Shown here: positions 7,215-55,406 of the stretch, piece by piece | Numbering within the stretch: the stretch's first letter is position 1 | Layout: every line of letters starts with the position of its first letter | Assembly (NCBI GenBank): GCA_030432295.1 | Contig: JAUIHI010000005.1 | Span: 62,001 to 126,000, forward strand | Direction of reading: 5' to 3' | Origin: Anaerolineae bacterium | Lineage (GTDB): Bacteria > Chloroflexota > Anaerolineae > Caldilineales > Caldilineaceae | Length of the DNA stretch: 64,000 nucleotides | Made by a program: the position numbers and the translations under genes | The notes under the pieces: model-generated | What the model saw: only the letters and a program-made list of their open reading frames with translations | Told to the model about the DNA's origin: nothing | Databases searched by the model: none

Positions 7215-7283
7215 ACCACAAAGGCACAAAGACACAGAGGAAAACGACTCTTTCTTTTCTTTGTGTCTTCGTGTCTTTGTGGT
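7215..7283. repeat. ACCACAAAG-type palindromic repeat, copy 1
   Basis: A long hairpin between the R3H gene and tmk. The left arm ACCACAAAGGCACAAAGACA (from 7215) pairs with a right arm ending at 7283 in CTTTGTGGT, with about 26 of 30 positions matching. The same sequence family recurs at 23930, 25603 and 44197. It reads open into tmk and would add a false N-terminal extension if an upstream start were used. Confidence 0.85.
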
Positions 7284-23929: not shown

Positions 23930-23997
23930 ACCACAAAGACGCCAAGGCACGAAGAATATCCCATTTCTCATTCTTTGCGCCTCTGTGACTTTGTGGT
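23930..23997. repeat. ACCACAAAG-type palindromic repeat, copy 2
   Basis: A hairpin with left end GACCACAAAGACGCCAAGGC and right end GACTTTGTGGT at 23997. It belongs to the family seen at 7215, 25603 and 44197. It lies between the acyltransferase and the carboxyltransferase genes. Confidence 0.85.
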
Positions 23998-25602: not shown

Positions 25603-25679
25603 AACCACGAAGACACAAAGCCACAAGGAAAAGCGCAAGTCTGTCTGTTTTTTCTTCGTGTCTTTGTGCCTTCGTGGTT
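25603..25679. repeat. ACCACAAAG-type palindromic repeat, copy 3
   Basis: The left arm begins AACCACGAAGACACAAAGCC and the right arm ends GTGCCTTCGTGGTT at 25679, nearly perfect. It sits between the carboxyltransferase gene and the unknown gene at 25697. Confidence 0.88.
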
Positions 25680-42728: not shown

Positions 42729-44172
42729 ACCGCTCTTTCGCTTCAGCGCTCCCCAGCCGCAGAACAAATTCCGCGCCGTGCCCGTCCCCTTCCGCCACAG
42801 TCAGTGTGCCGCCGTGGGCCTCGGCCAACCGCCGGGCCAGGGCCAGCCCAATCCCCATCCCTTCTTGAATCCGGGTCTGGTTGGGGGCGCGGTAGAAGAA
42901 CTGAAAGATATTTTCCCGATCCGCCGGGTCTATCCCCGGCCCGGTATCCCGCACACGCACGACTATCGGCGCGTTCTGCCCTGCCCCCTCCTGGGCCGCG
43001 GAGACAACCACCCGCCCCCCGGCTGGCGTATATTTGTAGGCGTTGTCCAGCAGATTGCCCAAAATCTGGCCGATGCGCACCGGGTCTACCTGTAAAGGCG
43101 GCAGGCTGGCAGCCACCTGACAGGAGAGGGCGATCTCTTTGGAACGCAATTTGCCTTCGCTGCGGTGACATTCGGCCTGAATCAGTGCGCCCACATCAGT
43201 GATTTTCAGGTCCAGCGCCAACTCCTGCATCTCGCTTTGGGCCAGCAGTGTCAGATCATCCAGCAGCAGGCGCAATTGGTCCACCTGCTCGTCGATACCT
43301 CCAGCCAGTTCGCCCACAACCTCGCCATTATTCCCGCTGTTCTGCCCCAACACCTGGGCCGCGGCTTTGATCGCGCCCAGGGGTCGGCCCAGTTCATGCA
43401 CAATACTGCGCAGAAGCCGTCGCCGGCCCTGTTCCAGTTCGTATAGCCGCTCGGCCATGCCGTTGAAAGTGTGGGCCAGCAGACGCACTTCGCTGGGGCC
43501 ACTCTCCAGGACAGTCGGCGGTGGCTGGTCAAAGCGGATGGAGCGGGCGGCTGCGGTCAACTGTTCCAGGGGGCGGTTGAGGGAGCGGGAGAGCAAAAAG
43601 CCCAGCAACCCGGCCAACACCATCCCAATTCCCGCGGTGGCCCAGACCAGCCAGCGCAGGAGCGCCAGCCGACTGCCTGTCTGCCCCAAGCCCTGGGATA
43701 GCTGAATCGCGCCCACCACCTCCTGATTTTCGTTGAAAACCGGCACAACCACATCCACCCCATTCGTCTGGGGATTCACACCGGAATGGGTTTGGCGGCT
43801 GGCTTGGCCCGCCAATGCCTGGCGCAGCAGCTCTTCGTTGAGGGAGAGGACGGGAACGTTTTGGGTGGTGGCCGCTACGCCAGAGGAGACCAGCAGACGG
43901 CCCTGGCTGTCCACCACAAAAATCTGGGCGGGCACAAGCACTTGCAGCCGGGTCATCAGGGGCTGGGACTGGTTGGGGTCCTTCCACGCCTGCCAGTTGC
44001 TCTGGGTCAGCCGGGCCACCAGTTGAGCCTGCACGGCCATTTCGTTGGCCACATTGACCAGCGCCACACGGGTTTCCAGCAGGTAGATCAGGGCCAGGCT
44101 GAAGAGTGGGACAAGGACGAGGATCGGTATGAAGTGGCTGAGGGCCAGGCGGAAACGCAGGCTGGAGAGCAT
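42727..44172 (-). CDS. Sensor histidine kinase (HisKA type)
   Basis: A 481-residue kinase. Two membrane helices (about 9-32 and 190-211) enclose an extracytoplasmic sensor domain of about 155 residues. A HAMP domain follows (SRSLNRPLEQLTAAARSI), then the H-box RSIVHELGRPLGAIKAAAQ with the phosphoacceptor His, the N-box DNAYKYTPAGG, G1 VRVRDTGPGIDP and G2 GMGIGLALARRLAEAHGG. The signal is unknown. The ATG at 44172 is chosen; a longer reading translates the repeat at 44197. It pairs with the response regulator upstream, from which it is now separated by a composite repeat. Confidence 0.9.
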   Translation of the reverse strand: MLSSLRFRLALSHFIPILVLVPLFSLALIYLLETRVALVNVANEMAVQAQLVARLTQSNWQAWKDPNQSQPLMTRLQVLVPAQIFVVDSQGRLLVSSGVAATTQNVPVLSLNEELLRQALAGQASRQTHSGVNPQTNGVDVVVPVFNENQEVVGAIQLSQGLGQTGSRLALLRWLVWATAGIGMVLAGLLGFLLSRSLNRPLEQLTAAARSIRFDQPPPTVLESGPSEVRLLAHTFNGMAERLYELEQGRRRLLRSIVHELGRPLGAIKAAAQVLGQNSGNNGEVVGELAGGIDEQVDQLRLLLDDLTLLAQSEMQELALDLKITDVGALIQAECHRSEGKLRSKEIALSCQVAASLPPLQVDPVRIGQILGNLLDNAYKYTPAGGRVVVSAAQEGAGQNAPIVVRVRDTGPGIDPADRENIFQFFYRAPNQTRIQEGMGIGLALARRLAEAHGGTLTVAEGDGHGAEFVLRLGSAEAKER

Positions 44173-44196
44173 CGGATGTATTTCCCAAGAATGGAT

Positions 44197-44434
44197 AACC
44201 ACGAAGACACAAAGCCACAAAGAAAAACAGTCTCTTTCTTTTGCTTTTTGTACTGGTCAACGGGATGGTGGAATGGCTATTTCTTAACGCAAAGATGCAA
44301 AGAGGCAAAGGCACAGAGAGAAAAGCGATTTCTTTGCGTCTCTGCTCCTTTGCGTCATTGCGTTGAAACTTCCACCATCTTCTTGACTACTACACTTTCT
44401 TTTGCTTTTCTTTGTGCCTTTGTGCCTTTGTGGT
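44197..44434. repeat. ACCACAAAG-type palindromic repeat, copy 4, split by a 146-bp element
   Basis: Left half from 44197 (AACCACGAAGACACAAAGCC) and right half ending at 44434 (CCTTTGTGCCTTTGTGGT) form the same hairpin as at 25603. The loop region is interrupted by the element at 44249-44394, with the 15-nt sequence CTTTCTTTTGCTTTT on both sides. It fills the gap between the response regulator and kinase genes. Confidence 0.9.
44249..44394. mobile_element. 146-bp MITE-like element, copy 1
   Basis: Begins TGTACTGGTCAACGGGATGG and ends with the inverse of TGTAGTAGTCAAGAAGATGG, so the ends are imperfect terminal inverted repeats of about 25 bp with TGTA/TACA tips. The interior is itself a hairpin of AACGCAAAG-type sequence. 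It is flanked by a perfect 15-bp direct repeat (44234-44248 and 44395-44409), expected of a target duplication. No coding capacity. A nearly identical copy of the same length lies in inverse orientation at 48704-48849. Confidence 0.88.
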
Positions 44435-44440
44435 AAAAAC

Positions 44441-45133
44441 TTACGCGCCAGAGACCAGCCGATACCCCACGCTGCGCACGGTCAGCAGACGCTGGGGTTT
44501 GTTGGGTTCGGTCTCGATTTTAGTGCGCAGCCAACGCACGTGGACATAGACAGTCTGGGGTTCACCCGCCCATTCCTCGCCCCAAACATTGACAATAATC
44601 TCTTCCAGAGGCACAGCCTCGCCCGCGCGCTGGGCCAGGTAATAGAGCAGGTCGTACTCTTTGGGGGCCAGTTCGATCAGCTTGCCGCCAACTGTCACCT
44701 GATGGGCCGTGGGATCGATGCGCAGATCGCCCACGGCGATGGGTTGGGCAGGCGGAGCAACGGGCTGGCGCTGTTGTGCCCGGCGCAGCACCGCCTTCAC
44801 CCGGGCCAGCAGAATGTCCATATCGAAGGGTTTGGTGACGTAGTCATCTGCGCCCATCTCCAGGCCCACAATCTCATCCAACTCCCGGCGGCGGGCGGTG
44901 ACGAAGATGACCGGCGCGGCCACTTCCTTCTGGAAAGCGCGCAGGGTTTCCAGCCCGTCCATCCCCGGCAGGCCGATGTCGAGCAGCACTAAATCCGGGC
45001 GCAGCTTGCGGGCTGCGGCCAGACCCTCCTCGCCACTGCCCGCGGTTTCCGTGGCATAGCCAGCGTCGGTCAAACTCAGCGAAACGCTGCGCCGCATCAA
45101 TCTGTCGTCGTCGATCACCAGAATTCGTGTCAT
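44441..45133 (-). CDS. OmpR/PhoB-family response regulator
   Basis: A 230-residue regulator. The receiver domain has the acidic pair IDDD at 7-10, the phosphoacceptor Asp at about 52 (LLDIGLPG), the Thr/Lys switch residues in VIFVTAR and DDYVTKPFD, and a C-terminal winged helix (ELAPKEYDLLYYLAQRAGEA, then TVYVHVRWLRTKIE). It should be phosphorylated by the kinase at 42727-44172. It starts 28 nt after the P450 stop codon, so P450 and regulator may be co-transcribed. Confidence 0.92.
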   Translation of the reverse strand: MTRILVIDDDRLMRRSVSLSLTDAGYATETAGSGEEGLAAARKLRPDLVLLDIGLPGMDGLETLRAFQKEVAAPVIFVTARRRELDEIVGLEMGADDYVTKPFDMDILLARVKAVLRRAQQRQPVAPPAQPIAVGDLRIDPTAHQVTVGGKLIELAPKEYDLLYYLAQRAGEAVPLEEIIVNVWGEEWAGEPQTVYVHVRWLRTKIETEPNKPQRLLTVRSVGYRLVSGA

Positions 45134-45161
45134 ACGCCTATTGTGCCAGCTTTGGAGGAAG

Positions 45162-46556
45162 TCACCAAACGGTTGACGCTGCGTCAGATCGTTCCCGCGG
45201 GTGAGCTTTCATCCACAGCCCATCTTTGGGGCGCAGGGTGATGCGTGGGTCCATCAACACCGCCCGATTGTCTGCCGGGCGAAACTGCCAGCGGCGGGCC
45301 AGTGTTGCCAGCAACAGAATACCTTCCATCCAGGCGAACTGTGCCCCGATGCAGACCCGCGGCCCTCCGCCAAAGGGGAAAAAGGCGAATTTGGGTCTGT
45401 CGTTTCGCTTCTCGGCCAGCCATCGCTCCGGGCGAAATTCGTCGGCCCAGGCAAAGTAGCGGCTGTCCCGGTGGGTGACCCACTGGCTGAGGAGAATCAT
45501 CGAACCCGCGGGCACGGCATAGCCGCCGATTACACAATCAGCGATGGCCGAGCGGCCAATCACCCAGGCCGGGGGATAGAGACGCAGACTCTCGGATAGC
45601 ACCGCGCGGGTGAAGGGCAGCCGCCCCAAATCGGCCATGCCCGGCAGCCCGCCGCTGGGCAGTAGCTGGTCTACTTCGGCGTGGAGCCGAGCCTCGGCCT
45701 CCGGGTGGGCGGCGAGCAGATGCCAGACCCACGCCAGCGCGTTGGCCGTCGTCTCGTGGCCAGCCAGGAGCAGTGTCAATGCCTGATCCCGCACAAACTG
45801 GTCATCGACGGATATGCCGCTCTCCTCATCCACTGCGGCCAGCAGCATATCCAGCAGATCGCCCTGGCCTGGCCCGCTCTTTCGTCGCCGGTCGATCAGC
45901 CCGTCGATCAGCCGGTTGAAAAAGTCTCTGGAATCGCGAAAGCGGCGAGCGGTTGGGGTGGGCAGCCAGGCCATCAGCGGGGCCAGCATCAGATGAACCG
46001 GGTCCGTCACTACCATCAGATCGTCCAGCGCCGTTGCGATCCGCTCCACTTGGCCGGAGAGATCCGTGCCAAAGAGCGTCTGCCCTACGATGCGTAACGT
46101 CAGATGGTTCATCGCCTGGGCCACATCGAAGAGAGCGCCCCCCTGCCATTCGTCGGCAACGCGACTGGCTTCCTGGGCCATCAGATCGGCATAACCGGCA
46201 ATGCGCTCGTGATGAAAGGCCGGTTGCACCAGACGACGGGCCTTCTGGTGCTCTTCCCCTTCGCTGGTCAGCAGCCCCTGGCCCAATACCACCCGCATCT
46301 GCTGCAACCCTCGACCTTTCGAGAAATTCGCGTGGTCTGTGACCAGAACCTGCTGCACGAAATCTGGATGGTTGAGGAGAAAGGCAGGGCGTCCCGCAAT
46401 GGAAAATTCGACAATATCGCCGTAAGTGCGGGCCAGCCCAGCCAGCATTCCGGTGGGGTCCCGGCGAAAGGCCAGTATCCGCTGGCCGGGAAAGGTAAAG
46501 CCTGGGCCGGGCGCGCGTTTGGGCGCAAGAGATTTATGGGAAAGAGTGTGTATCAT
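45162..46556 (-). CDS. Cytochrome P450
   Basis: A 464-residue monooxygenase with no N-terminal anchor, so soluble. The I-helix oxygen-binding motif AGHETTANALAW, the ExxR motif in SESLRLYPPAWVIG, and the heme-binding FPFGGGPRVCIGAQFA with the Cys ligand are intact. The ordering resembles CYP102/CYP4-like bacterial P450s that act on fatty acids or lipophilic compounds, but the substrate is not readable. No ferredoxin or reductase is adjacent. The ATG at 46556 has GGAGG 5 nt upstream. It follows the lipoprotein gene by 47 nt. Confidence 0.93.
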   Translation of the reverse strand: MIHTLSHKSLAPKRAPGPGFTFPGQRILAFRRDPTGMLAGLARTYGDIVEFSIAGRPAFLLNHPDFVQQVLVTDHANFSKGRGLQQMRVVLGQGLLTSEGEEHQKARRLVQPAFHHERIAGYADLMAQEASRVADEWQGGALFDVAQAMNHLTLRIVGQTLFGTDLSGQVERIATALDDLMVVTDPVHLMLAPLMAWLPTPTARRFRDSRDFFNRLIDGLIDRRRKSGPGQGDLLDMLLAAVDEESGISVDDQFVRDQALTLLLAGHETTANALAWVWHLLAAHPEAEARLHAEVDQLLPSGGLPGMADLGRLPFTRAVLSESLRLYPPAWVIGRSAIADCVIGGYAVPAGSMILLSQWVTHRDSRYFAWADEFRPERWLAEKRNDRPKFAFFPFGGGPRVCIGAQFAWMEGILLLATLARRWQFRPADNRAVLMDPRITLRPKDGLWMKAHPRERSDAASTVW

Positions 46557-46603
46557 TGGGACCTCCGATAGGTAGCAATCCATAACTCGCAACTCGCCAT
46601 CCG

Positions 46604-47824
46604 CTAGGGCCGTCGGCCACCGGTGGGCGGCTGAACGTTGCCAGGCCGGCCAGGTGCCGCGGCTGCGCCATTGCCGCCCAGCGAAGGCATCTGTGTATTG
46701 ATTCCTTCCAGGCCCTGGTGCGCGGCGGGCAGATCGTTGCGGGCCAGGGCGTCCGTCACCGAATCGATGGAGCCAGCCATTCCCTGCAACTGAGGACCTC
46801 CGAAGTCCTTCAATCCAGCCGATGCATTGGCCCCAGCCTGGGCGATGGCAACGATTTCGCTCTGGTCGATGCGTCCATCTGCCAGGGAGCGCTGGGCCAC
46901 ATCCACAAAAGAGCGGGTCATTTGCAGAGCCGCAGGCAGATCAGTCGCCATCTGCTGGGGCTGAATCGTCTGAATCAGAGCAGAAAAATCGGCTGACTGG
47001 TTTGCCAGCGCGGCCTGTGCATCTTTGGCCCGATCCACCTGGGCCTGCAAGCTGCTCTGCCAGACTTGGGCCTGGGCTTGCGCCTGATCCGCTGCGATCT
47101 GCGCCTGGGCCGCGGCGTTTTCCAACTGGGCAATGCTCTCTTCGGCCAGTTCCAGGCCCGCCTCCAGCGTTGCGCTGATCTCTTCCAGGCTGGTGGCAAT
47201 CGACGCCGCGTTTTGGTTCAGCGTCGCCAGTTCCTGCTCGATGCCATTTAGCGCTGCCACCATCTCGGCGCTGCTGTCCGCATAGAGCTGACCGTAGGTC
47301 GCCAGCACTTCTTCGGCATAGGCAATCGTCTCTTCGGCCAGTTGGACATAGACTTCCAACGTCTGCACTTCGTCGCTGGTCACTACCGCGTCGGATGTGG
47401 CTGTGGACGCTGCTTGGGCAGAGGCTTCGGTGGCGGCCACGGCCTGTTCCACCGCCTCGTCGATAAGCGCTTCCAGCTCCTCTTCGCTCATCGAAATGTA
47501 TACGTCCTGGGGCACATAGACAATTTCCGTAACAGTTTCGACAACTGTTTCTGTAACGGTTTCTGTAACCGTTTCAGTATTGGTGATGACAATCGGTGTG
47601 GGGGTTGGTGTCAGCGCTGCGTTGTCGCCCAGAGCTGTGGCTGTGGCTTGCACAGCGGCGTCGATGGATGCCTGGGTTTGGGCCTGGGCTGCGGTGGTCG
47701 CCTGGACAGCCGCAGCGATGGTGGCCTCCGCATTGGGCGCGGGTGTATTTGCTCCTCGACCGCAGGCGGCCAGGGCAAGGAGAATGAGGCAAAGGGTGAA
47801 GATTCGGGGGAGAGAGAATTTCAT
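46604..47824 (-). CDS. Coiled-coil lipoprotein of unknown function
   Basis: A 406-residue lipoprotein. The signal peptide ends in the lipobox LALAACG with Cys at about 21. A Thr/Val repeat (TETVTETVTETVVETVTE, about 84-101) precedes a long Ala/Glu/Gln-rich coiled-coil region (about 115-290), then a tail rich in Gly/Pro (about 380-406). The long coil suggests a stalk or periplasmic/envelope spacer. No enzymatic motif is seen. It lies between two two-component systems and directly upstream of the P450 gene. Confidence 0.65.
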   Translation of the reverse strand: MKFSLPRIFTLCLILLALAACGRGANTPAPNAEATIAAAVQATTAAQAQTQASIDAAVQATATALGDNAALTPTPTPIVITNTETVTETVTETVVETVTEIVYVPQDVYISMSEEELEALIDEAVEQAVAATEASAQAASTATSDAVVTSDEVQTLEVYVQLAEETIAYAEEVLATYGQLYADSSAEMVAALNGIEQELATLNQNAASIATSLEEISATLEAGLELAEESIAQLENAAAQAQIAADQAQAQAQVWQSSLQAQVDRAKDAQAALANQSADFSALIQTIQPQQMATDLPAALQMTRSFVDVAQRSLADGRIDQSEIVAIAQAGANASAGLKDFGGPQLQGMAGSIDSVTDALARNDLPAAHQGLEGINTQMPSLGGNGAAAAPGRPGNVQPPTGGRRP

Positions 47825-47958
47825 TGGTCGGCTCCTGGTTCAGACAAAATGTGCGAGATGGCCGGTTCCATCTTCATCTGCCTGCCAGAATACCAATTCA
47901 GCCCAGAAGAGTCAGCCTCCATTCGTCGTAGAAATCGACCCTTCTTTCGTATGAAGCC

Positions 47959-47992
47959 AGAAGTTCGACTTTTCGGAAAAAGTCGAACTTCT
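47959..47992. terminator. Hairpin at the end of the NarL-type regulator gene
   Basis: AGAAGTTCGACTTTT (47959-47973) and its exact inverse (47978-47992) form a 15-bp stem with a 4-nt loop. The right arm overlaps the stop codon of the minus-strand regulator. It has the same arms, less degenerate, as the hairpin at 5441-5463. Confidence 0.75.
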
Positions 47993-48635
47993 ATGGCCCC
48001 ATCGCATCCACATCGACCAGCCCGTAGCGGACAGCCAGCAGCGCGGCCTGGGTGCGGTCGGCTACGTGGAGTTTGCCCAAAATTGTACTGACGTAGCCCT
48101 TTACCGTCGCTTCGGTCAGAAATAGCCGGGCGGCTATCTCTTTGTTGCTGTTGCCCTGGGCCAGCAGCGTCAATACTTCGCGCTCCCGCTCGGTCAGTTC
48201 GTCCAGGGGAGTGGCGGGCGCGGGCATCTGGCCCATTAGCTTGCGGGCAATGTCCGGGTGCAATTGGGGAATGCCCTGGGCCGCGCCCCGAATCGCGGCG
48301 ACCAGACTGTCCCCCGGCGTATCCTTGAGCAGGTAGCCCGTCACGCCCGCTTTGAGCGCTGCGTAGAGTTTGGCGTCGGTGTCAAAACTGGTGAGGATGA
48401 GAATGTGGACATCCGGCTGGTTCGCTCGAATCTTCTCTGCAGCGGCCAGCCCGTCCATCTCCGGCATCTGAATATCGAGCAGCAGCACATCCGGGGATTG
48501 GGCAGCCGCCAGCAGGACGGCCTCCCGGCCATTGGCCGCCTCGCCCACCAGCTCCATATCTTCCTCGCCCAGAATTGTCATACGCAGACCCCGACGCACA
48601 ATCTCGTGATCATCTGCAATAGCTACTCGAATCAT
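47991..48635 (-). CDS. NarL/FixJ-family response regulator
   Basis: A 214-residue regulator: receiver domain with IADDHEIVRRGL and phosphoacceptor Asp at about 54 (LLLDIQMPEMDG), and a LuxR-type HTH (LTEREREVLTLLAQGNSNKE, then TVKGYVSTILGKLHVADRTQ). Its partner is the NarL-type kinase gene upstream at 48905. The two are separated by 269 bp containing a MITE-like element, so the operon has been split or the terminator-like element lies inside it. AAGGAAA precedes the ATG at 48635. Confidence 0.93.
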   Translation of the reverse strand: MIRVAIADDHEIVRRGLRMTILGEEDMELVGEAANGREAVLLAAAQSPDVLLLDIQMPEMDGLAAAEKIRANQPDVHILILTSFDTDAKLYAALKAGVTGYLLKDTPGDSLVAAIRGAAQGIPQLHPDIARKLMGQMPAPATPLDELTEREREVLTLLAQGNSNKEIAARLFLTEATVKGYVSTILGKLHVADRTQAALLAVRYGLVDVDAMGP

Positions 48636-48703
48636 CAAATTTCCTTTCTTGAACGAAAACCAGAACGCTGGTTTGGGCAAAAACTACAGATTTTGCAGAT
48701 TTT

Positions 48704-48849
48704 TGTAGTAGTCAAGAAGATGGTGGAATTTTCAACGCAATGACGCAAAGGAGCAGAGACGTAAAGAAATCGCTTTTCTCTCTGTGCCTTTGCCTCTTTG
48801 CATCTTTGCGTTAAGAAATAGCCATTCCACCATCCCGTTGACCAGTACA
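48704..48849. mobile_element. 146-bp MITE-like element, copy 2
   Basis: An inverse-orientation copy of the element at 44249-44394, also 146 bp, with TGTA and TACA tips. It is flanked by AGATTTTGCAGATTTT (48688-48703) and AGATTTCGCAGATTTT (48850-48865), a 16-bp direct repeat with one mismatch. The flanking sequence itself belongs to another repeat type (CAGATTTTATCTGTATTTAT), so it too was inserted in a repeat. No coding capacity. Confidence 0.88.
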
Positions 48850-48904
48850 AGATTTCGCAGATTTTATCTGTATTTATCAGCGTTCACCAGTGGCTGTTTT
48901 CACA

Positions 48905-51052
48905 TCAGGGGCGGGACCAGACCGCGTGTACACGGGTTCCCGTCCCCGGCGTGGATTCTATGGAAAGGGTTGCGCCGATCTTTGCGGCCCGCTCCGCCAT
49001 CGAAGCCAGGCCCAGGCCGTGCCCTGCTGTGGAAACGCTCTGCTCTGGCACAAATCCCTTGCCCTCGTCGATAATCCGCAGGTGTACTTGCCCGTCTCCC
49101 TCGTCCAGACGGCAGAGAGCTTGGGAAACCCCCGCATACTTTAGCACATTGTGCAGGGCCTCTTTGCTGATGAAGAGCATCTCCTCTGCCACCTCTGCCG
49201 GCAGAGCGAGATGCTCTGGCGCTTCCAACTGCACGTGCAGGCCGTTGGCAGCCAATTGCCGACAGTGGGCGGCCAAATGCCGGGCCAAATCGCCGTCGGG
49301 CAGCAGCGGGGCACGCAGTTGCGCGAGCAATGCCCTCATCTCGCCCAGGGCTTGCCGGGCCGCATCTTCCTGCTCGGCCAGCCCCTGGCTGGTGGCCGCG
49401 GGATCGCGCAGGGCCAGTTTGCCCAGTGCCCGGCTCCCCAGGCTAATGCTGAAGAGGGTCTGCGTCACCGAGTCGTGCAGGTCCCGGGCCAGCCGCTGCC
49501 GCTCTTCGGCCACGGCCAATGCCCGCTGTTGATCCAGCACCTGCTCGGTCTGGGCGGCCACCTGGGCTTCCAGATTCAGGTTCAGATCGGTCAGCACTTC
49601 CAGGGTTTCGGCATAGGCCAGGGCCAGGGCTGCCTGGGCGACAATCCCGTGCAGCGCGGCCTGCTCGGCCCCGTCGAAGGGCAGACCGCTGCGCCGGGGA
49701 CCGAGCCAGTAGCGACCCAGCACCCGATCGCCCACTTCCAATCGGCCATTCCAGGCGGGCTGGCTCTCTCTCTGGCCTGGCACATCCTGGGCTGGGGCCA
49801 GCACCAGACCGGCCCAAAGTGAATCCAGCGCAAGCGGCAGTTCGTCTTCCAACAGTGCATAAATCTCTCGTCGGGAAACCACCTGCTGCAAGCGGTTGCG
49901 GGCCTCGGCCATTACGTGGGCAAAGCGCAGCCGTTCCGGATAGAATATCCGATCGACAAAACCCAAGAGGAGTTGATAGAGGGGACGAAAGGCCAGCGCG
50001 GCTATAATAAGGGTGAGCAGAATCGCGGCTGTCTGAAACTGGGGAAGCAGTTGGGCGAGCAGGCGGCTGAGGAAGTCGGTAAAGCCAAAATAGACGCCGA
50101 GCAGAACCGCGCTGACACCCGTATAGGCCAGGGCACGGCGCACAGCCGCATCGATCCCAAAAAGGTCGTGTCGCTGTATCGCATAGGCAACGGTCAGCGG
50201 GACAGCAATCTGGAAGAGCAGTGCCACGTCATAGGGGATGGTGACCGGCCAGCCCAGACCAAAAAGCAATAGACGCAGCAACAGCGGTACTTCGGCCAGC
50301 AGAAAACCGAGCAGAAGAAGCCGAGCCTGGCTGGCCGAACCCAGCCAGGCCGGGTCGCTCTCCCGGCTGACCCGGATTAGCTGGAGATGGGCAAGGGCCA
50401 ACAGAAAGAGCAGCCAGCCGATCATTGGGATTCCGACGGCATAACGCAGCCAGCCCGGCGGCGGGAGCAATACGCCAAGCGTAAGAAGAGCCGTTATCAG
50501 ATAGACGTACAGCAGATGGCGATCCGTAGGCGTTTGGGCCTGGGCCTGGGGGCTGCGGGGCGGAAAGCGGGCGGCCAAATGCAGGGCGACCGGAATTGCC
50601 AACGCCGCGTTGAAGTAGCGCAGGAGCGCATGGGGTGGCAAAGAAGAGAGAAGTGAGACTTTGCGTTCCAGATTGACCGAAGAGATGTCAAAGGGGATGA
50701 CCAGCAGACCGGCCAGCAGAACCGCCAGAATGGCAGCCAACCGGGTGTCGTTGCCCGGACGCAAGACAGGAATCAGCAGCCCGCTGGCAACCAGCAGCAG
50801 AGAGACACCCGCGGAAAAGCGAGTGATCCCCAGCTCCATCTGCTGGGAAGCCATAGCCAGCCCCAGCAGTTCGACAGCGATCAGCAGCAGCACAGGGATA
50901 CAGGCCTGGGCAAGGCTGGCTGAAGGGGTTGCCGCGTTTTGGGGAGTTGAATGCACGTCGCGTTTGGACACGGGCCTGACAGATTCTTTCGATGGCTGGA
51001 GAAGATATCGCAGGGTGAGTCTATTGAAGAAACGGGTTTTTCGCAAACACAC
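48905..51052 (-). CDS. Membrane sensor histidine kinase (NarL/DegS type)
   Basis: A 715-residue kinase. About eight hydrophobic helices occupy residues 50-330, then a cytoplasmic GAF-like region, a coiled coil (LNLNLEAQVAAQTEQVLDQQ), the HisKA_3 box RLARDLHDSVTQTLFSISLG with the phosphoacceptor His, and the ATPase domain with IIDEGKGF and GHGLGLASMAERAAKIGA. The N-terminal 45 residues from the GTG at 51052 are not conserved-looking, so a later start is possible. It is the partner of the regulator at 47991-48635 and divergent from fadN. Confidence 0.88.
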   Translation of the reverse strand: MCLRKTRFFNRLTLRYLLQPSKESVRPVSKRDVHSTPQNAATPSASLAQACIPVLLLIAVELLGLAMASQQMELGITRFSAGVSLLLVASGLLIPVLRPGNDTRLAAILAVLLAGLLVIPFDISSVNLERKVSLLSSLPPHALLRYFNAALAIPVALHLAARFPPRSPQAQAQTPTDRHLLYVYLITALLTLGVLLPPPGWLRYAVGIPMIGWLLFLLALAHLQLIRVSRESDPAWLGSASQARLLLLGFLLAEVPLLLRLLLFGLGWPVTIPYDVALLFQIAVPLTVAYAIQRHDLFGIDAAVRRALAYTGVSAVLLGVYFGFTDFLSRLLAQLLPQFQTAAILLTLIIAALAFRPLYQLLLGFVDRIFYPERLRFAHVMAEARNRLQQVVSRREIYALLEDELPLALDSLWAGLVLAPAQDVPGQRESQPAWNGRLEVGDRVLGRYWLGPRRSGLPFDGAEQAALHGIVAQAALALAYAETLEVLTDLNLNLEAQVAAQTEQVLDQQRALAVAEERQRLARDLHDSVTQTLFSISLGSRALGKLALRDPAATSQGLAEQEDAARQALGEMRALLAQLRAPLLPDGDLARHLAAHCRQLAANGLHVQLEAPEHLALPAEVAEEMLFISKEALHNVLKYAGVSQALCRLDEGDGQVHLRIIDEGKGFVPEQSVSTAGHGLGLASMAERAAKIGATLSIESTPGTGTRVHAVWSRP

Positions 51053-55347: not shown

Positions 55348-55406
55348 AGTAGTGAAAAGAAAAAGGTGAGAGCGATATTCGCTCTCACCTTTTTCTTTTC
55401 ACTACT
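55348..55406. terminator. Bidirectional terminator between fadA and the SH3b/GH protein
   Basis: A perfect 27-bp stem (55348-55374 with 55380-55406) and a 5-nt loop. A GC-rich GGTGAGAGCG core is followed by CTTTTTCTTTT on the right, and an equivalent A-rich left side suits the minus-strand gene. Confidence 0.93.

Follow-up and report, generated by a model that had tools for sequence, protein, structure and literature searches.

A family of miniature transposons with 15-bp target duplications at paired A/T triplets in an Anaerolineae genome, probably moved by an IS481-like transposase

The 146-bp element found twice in the window (the whole stretch of 64,000 nucleotides that was analysed) is a non-autonomous miniature transposon (MITE), represented by about forty copies in its own genome. 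The feature common to its target sites, near-universal in two independent sets of insertions, is a pair of A/T triplets separated by seven bases, WWW-N7-WWW (W = A or T). We assign a probability of about 0.87 to the reading in which an IS481-like transposase acts in trans on the ends of this MITE and joins them to the target 15 bp apart at a symmetric A/T-triplet site.

In this mechanism, an IS481-like DDE (rve) transposase supplied by insertion sequences (IS) of about 1.5 kb from Anaerolineae would bind in trans to the terminal inverted repeats of about 25 bp (TGTANTRRTCAR...). The ends would be joined to the two target strands with a stagger of 15 bp, occasionally 14 or 16, where the sequence to be duplicated has A/T triplets at positions 2-4 and 12-14, and gap repair would then leave the 15-bp duplication.

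The 146-bp element and its copies

The element at 48704-48849 is inverted with respect to the copy at 44249-44394 and 99% identical to it; computed as 44248-44394 and 48704-48850, the inverted pair is 99% complementary with a spacing of 4309 nt. Its tips, TGTAGTAG... and TGTACTGG..., form imperfect inverted repeats of 25 bp (20 of 25 positions identical), and the 146 nt as a whole fold into a single long hairpin (DNA fold z = -7.8; 0 of 200 shuffles equally good). Both window copies lie within palindromic repeats, and each is flanked by the gene of a sensor kinase and a co-directional response-regulator gene, the products being read from the ORF translations. A search of Rfam over 43,900-49,300 gave no family above the gathering score. 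The preliminary description of this DNA was right about the coordinates, length, tips, opposite orientation and flanks of the 48704-48849 copy. It had ascribed a 16-bp duplication to both copies, which is correct for 48704-48849, flanked by AGATTTTGCAGATTTT and AGATTTCGCAGATTTT (15 of 16 identical), but not for 44249-44394, where the duplication is 15 bp long (CTTTCTTTTGCTTTT, 15/15). The features are listed below.

48704-48849, + strand: MITE copy 2, 146 bp, tips TGTAGTAG...CCAGTACA
48704-48728, + strand: left terminal inverted repeat, TGTAGTAGTCAAGAAGATGGTGGAA
48825-48849, - strand: right terminal inverted repeat, reading TGTACTGGTCAACGGGATGGTGGAA on the - strand, 20 of 25 positions in common with the left one
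48731-48822, no strand: core hairpin of the CGCAAAG type, with the terminal repeats around it
48688-48703, + strand: target-site duplication of copy 2, left, 16 bp
48850-48865, + strand: target-site duplication of copy 2, right, 15/16 identical
44249-44394, - strand: MITE copy 1, inverted, 99% identical
44234-44248, + strand: target-site duplication of copy 1, left, 15 bp
44395-44409, + strand: target-site duplication of copy 1, right, 15 bp, 15/15
44198-44434, no strand: hairpin repeat of the CACAAAG type split by copy 1, arms 44198-44229 and 44403-44434

Further free-standing hairpin repeats of the CACAAAG type were observed in the window at 7215-7283, 23930-23997 and 25603-25679, and a perfect 28-bp inverted repeat with a 3-nt loop at 55348-55406.

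A DNA search of the own genome revealed 32 near-full-length copies, far more than chance would give, plus some ten truncated or diverged ones. The spread of the 146-bp family looks fairly recent, because the 29 copies of exactly 146 bp have a mean identity of 96.4% (minimum 88.4%). Duplications were surveyed in 48 elements of this genome, comprising 32 members of the main family and a further 16 that have diverged but carry ends of this kind; the end pattern was listed at the first 100 of its 114 places. Truncated or decayed loci (L033-L036 and L038-L040) were left out, as were unpaired or degenerate matches (L041-L043, L048, L049, L052 and L056). A 15-bp duplication with up to three mismatches was present in 36 of the 48 elements (21 exact, 8 with one, 4 with two and 3 with three mismatches); three had 16 bp, one had 14 bp and eight had no clear duplication. 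The 48704-48849 copy is therefore one of the three with 16 bp, and 15 bp is the rule in the genome. In outside genomes, 94 loci carrying the pattern yielded 43 elements with a 15-bp duplication (two mismatches at most), 23 of them exact. The multi-copy family and the duplications at 36/48 elements bear out the earlier proposal of a mobile element that duplicates its target.

The traits that define a MITE were all found, namely 25-bp inverted ends (20/25), a duplication of constant length, multiple copies and no transposase inside the 146 bp. An autonomous element with the same ends was present in a genome of the same genus and not in the own assembly. At one locus (L126, element start 3795) the hairpin core of the MITE is itself split by another hairpin-bearing insertion.

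Target sites

When the 36 own duplications were stacked both ways, positions 2-4 and 12-14 were A or T in 89-90% of cases and the other positions in 35-64%, which gives the symmetric pattern N-WWW-N7-WWW-N. This pattern was matched exactly by 16 of the 36 own sites, compared with 1.8% of the 58,362 positions scored as intergenic and 0.5% of those in coding DNA. Shifting the frame by -1 or +1 left 7 and 4 fits in these sites, and shifts of 2 to 7 bp left 0-1; smaller peaks appeared at an offset of 10-11 bp, with 9 and 6 fits upstream and 6 and 3 downstream. The same six positions were 87-92% A/T in the 43 outside elements (other positions, 29-73%), with an exact fit in 25/43, some of these genomes being more A/T-rich than the own one. 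Since the A/T triplets are placed one helical turn apart, we infer that the transposase recognises bendable DNA, not hairpins, and that the target is bent. Duplication lengths fall into discrete classes of about 5, 15 and 25 bp according to PMC10045372, and these classes would differ by whole helical turns. The two-triplet motif with its one-turn spacing offers a testable geometric account of the long duplications of the IS481/IS1202 lineage, hitherto unexplained.

The location of both window copies in palindromic repeats had led to the proposal that the element prefers hairpin-forming DNA, to be abandoned if most copies lay in non-repetitive DNA. Empty sites were reconstructed for the 40 elements with a duplication by removing the element and one duplication copy, and 90 nt around each site were folded; the hairpin and repeat tests thus omit the 8/48 elements that have no clear duplication. 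Values of z<-2 were obtained at 13/40 empty sites, versus 2-5 of 39-40 at 100-200 bp on either side. For sites called intergenic the figure was 11/24, versus 88/400 motif-matched intergenic controls (Fisher p = 0.012, odds ratio 3) and 82/400 other intergenic sites (p = 0.0085). Motif sites did not differ in hairpin richness from other intergenic sites (p = 0.55), so the motif does not account for the hairpin bias. Because the ORF calling behind the intergenic mask was greedy and assigned 93% of the DNA to coding sequence, 16/40 sites were classed as coding, 2 of these 16 having z<-2. Insertion points fell in dispersed repeats (sequences found at least twice elsewhere in 0.86 Mb) in 14/40 cases, versus 3, 0, 2 and 0 of 40 at four offsets.

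A modest hairpin preference is therefore likely to be real as a minor bias. Hairpin repeats receive insertions about twice as often as matched controls, and may perhaps simply be places where insertion is tolerated. Targeting of hairpin-forming palindromic repeats as such is nevertheless improbable: 27/40 sites had no significant fold, 26/40 lay outside dispersed repeats, and the A/T-triplet motif is near-universal in the own and the outside sets. Most copies occupy non-repetitive, non-hairpin DNA, the outcome under which the proposal was to be abandoned. The two window copies, both in repeats, are not representative, and the proposed preference survives for the minority of sites that fold (13/40).

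Partner insertion sequences and alternative readings

The own genome assembly is rated 100% complete and consists of 61 contigs. Profile searches detected neither rve nor ISNCY_2 in it and no match to the IS tail described below was found, so that it shows no resident enzyme. Public genomes were scanned with the end pattern. Among the matches listed, contig ends of a genome of the same genus (G006) begin with such an end, followed by the tail of a transposase gene. In G006, 8 contig ends carry this tail; across the class it was present in 16 of 396 genomes. The opposite IS end was located on 3 contigs of G006, of which 2 extend as far as the start of the transposase. The G006 IS is known from its two ends, its middle being absent from the assembly; both pairable copies (2/2) had exact 15-bp duplications, GAAAACCGTAGATTT and AAATGGCAGAAATTC, and both fitted the motif. 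The MITEs of G006 also have 15-bp duplications and 23 of 25 end bases in common with this IS. In the own genome, some diverged subfamilies are closer to this IS in their ends than the main family is. Full-length related IS were identified in other genera, with lengths of 1492 bp (L189, 16-bp exact duplication), 1592 bp (L193, 15-bp exact duplication) and 1506 bp (L191, 15-bp exact duplication).

The sole rve match in the genus, a protein of genome G005, is an IS21 transposase and hence not the partner. Single end-pattern matches in Marivirga, Nitrospirae, Amylibacter, a proteobacterium and one viral contig had no paired end and were considered chance; those in Parabeggiatoa, which have no clean duplication, are candidates at most. 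A plasmid collection contained no match to the 39-aa transposase tail or to the 506-aa protein of L195.

Two related transposases encoded in a single frame (506 and 518 aa as translated) had IS481 as their best NCBIfam match (E 3e-39 and 1e-40), with 135 and 140 bits, below the curated cut-off of 224 for NF033577 (IS481). Pfam rve, rve_3 and HTH domains were recognised in the related IS proteins (PF13683 and PF00665 matched, PF13683 above its cut-off), and comparison with solved structures gave weak matches to retroviral integrase cores. About 150 extra charged residues, read from the sequence, follow the first catalytic strand and precede the remainder of the core. Four elements have the gene divided between two frames at an A-run near nt 445, with a -1 shift in L189, L201 and L205 and a +1 shift or indel in L191, which looks like IS3-type (programmed) frameshifting or slippage. 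The 146-bp element was most likely moved by an IS481-like transposase of the kind found in the sister genome.

Membership of the IS1202 family, through its long-duplication members (16-28 bp), is unlikely. PMC10132070 gives this group long duplications of 16-28 bp and TGT/ACA tips; the tips found here agree, and the duplication length does so approximately, being mostly 15 bp, with 16 bp in one related IS. The N-terminal part of the transposase does match ISNCY_2 at E 5e-5, but the same part matches IS481 at 1.7e-20, and the catalytic part matches IS481 and IS3, not ISNCY_2. Matches to the ISNCY_2 profile (NF033594) were N-terminal only (E 5e-5 and 3e-5), at 22-23 bits versus a cut-off of 250.

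We consider it very improbable that the 44.4-48.7 kb segment is switched by inversion between the two copies, a possibility raised earlier and consistent with 146-bp inverted repeats of 99% identity placed 4.3 kb apart. Inversion would split both gene pairs straddling the elements, yet the left kinase-regulator pair had the order and orientation of the window in 6/6 same-genus genomes, the right regulator-kinase pair kept both in the 3 loci that span it, and no recombinase is tied to the segment. The spacers compared in these relatives are without the 146-bp element. Because the straddling pairs are unchanged in relatives, the assembled orientation of the segment is ancestral, and the comparison shows no inversion. 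In G005 the right kinase is located elsewhere. A rearranged junction relative to the other genomes was located at about 45.17-45.21 kb, between the regulator and the P450 gene and not at either element. This junction (window 45170-45210) is absent from the same-genus genomes, in which the two blocks are apart.

Casposons produce target duplications of about 14-15 bp, and a casposon-like or Cas1-driven element, which agrees in duplication length only, can practically be dismissed, since the sole Cas1 of the own genome is beside Cas2-, Cas4- and Cas6-like genes (read from translations) and a CRISPR array, and the matching ends are on IS with an rve transposase. A CRISPR array with Cas1 and Cas2-, Cas4- and Cas6-like genes was observed at a contig end (L087, G000:C39:1-3598).

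Hairpin cores and comparison with known systems

The cores were compared in 95 elements (48 own and 47 outside, with three duplication mismatches at most) after trimming 27 bp from each end. BLAST sorted them into 4 multi-member clusters and 4 singletons, and a word-based sort distinguished at least five types, CGCAAAG, GACGCAGAT, GTAGGTGCGG, GGAGTGCAA and CACCCTGAG. Against dinucleotide shuffles, 86/95 cores folded at z<-2 (median -4.3). Since at least five unrelated cores are found between these ends, and most cores fold, the elements have the look of modular, hairpin-carrying MITEs.

Other genera of the family have CGCAAAG hairpins that lack such ends. Within 0.86 Mb of the own genome, all 12 CGCAAAG hairpins had a stretch resembling the terminal inverted repeats nearby, and the GACGCAGAT type was found free at three places; outside loci were chosen by their ends, and free hairpins are therefore under-counted there. 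The capture of chromosomal hairpins by the ends is the simplest reading, and hairpins may also have entered MITEs by the reverse route. A broader and rather doubtful proposal is that ends of the IS481-like group repeatedly bracketed unrelated chromosomal hairpin repeats, and that the resulting elements insert into hairpins above expectation. If this were true, hairpins would serve as cargo and also as preferred insertion sites, and intergenic palindromes would spread through genomes in this way. How hairpin repeats disperse in bacteria is poorly understood, and the element set offers a concrete route by which they could move as passengers of DDE transposons. The kinase-regulator spacer (window 44178-44453) and its counterparts in relatives (L255, L256 and L258) contain different iterated hairpin repeats, of the CACAAAG and GACGGCGGACGGCGG types, as if this slot were repeatedly filled by unrelated hairpins.

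No account of this MITE family, its target motif or its hairpin cores was found among the papers listed on IS481 and MITEs, Chloroflexi MITEs and hairpin targeting. Exact words for six cores or repeats were absent from a collection of 5.39 million papers, a search that sequences given only in figures or supplements would escape.

Like bacterial MITEs, the element is short and non-coding, with inverted ends, a duplication of constant length, many near-identical copies and an autonomous relative; unlike these in general, it has the same ends around several unrelated hairpin cores and a 15-bp duplication. With REPINs and REP repeats it shares the form of dispersed intergenic hairpins. The mobility of REP repeats is tied to Y1 (RAYT) enzymes and is not known to produce such duplications, whereas the element described here has 15-bp duplications and DDE-type ends.

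Some IS481 members, ISMac4 and ISA0963-1, have 15-bp duplications according to PMC10045372, and the family studied here resembles them in its partner DDE/rve transposase, its TG...CA tips and its duplications of about 15 bp. It differs from the IS481 family in that the related transposases score below the cut-off, contain about 150 extra residues and are encoded in two frames in 4 elements. The TGT/ACA tips and imperfect ends of 24-26 bp are shared with IS1202 as described in PMC10132070, and the duplications resemble the long ones of one IS1202 subgroup, but the transposase is mainly similar to IS481 and not to ISNCY_2.
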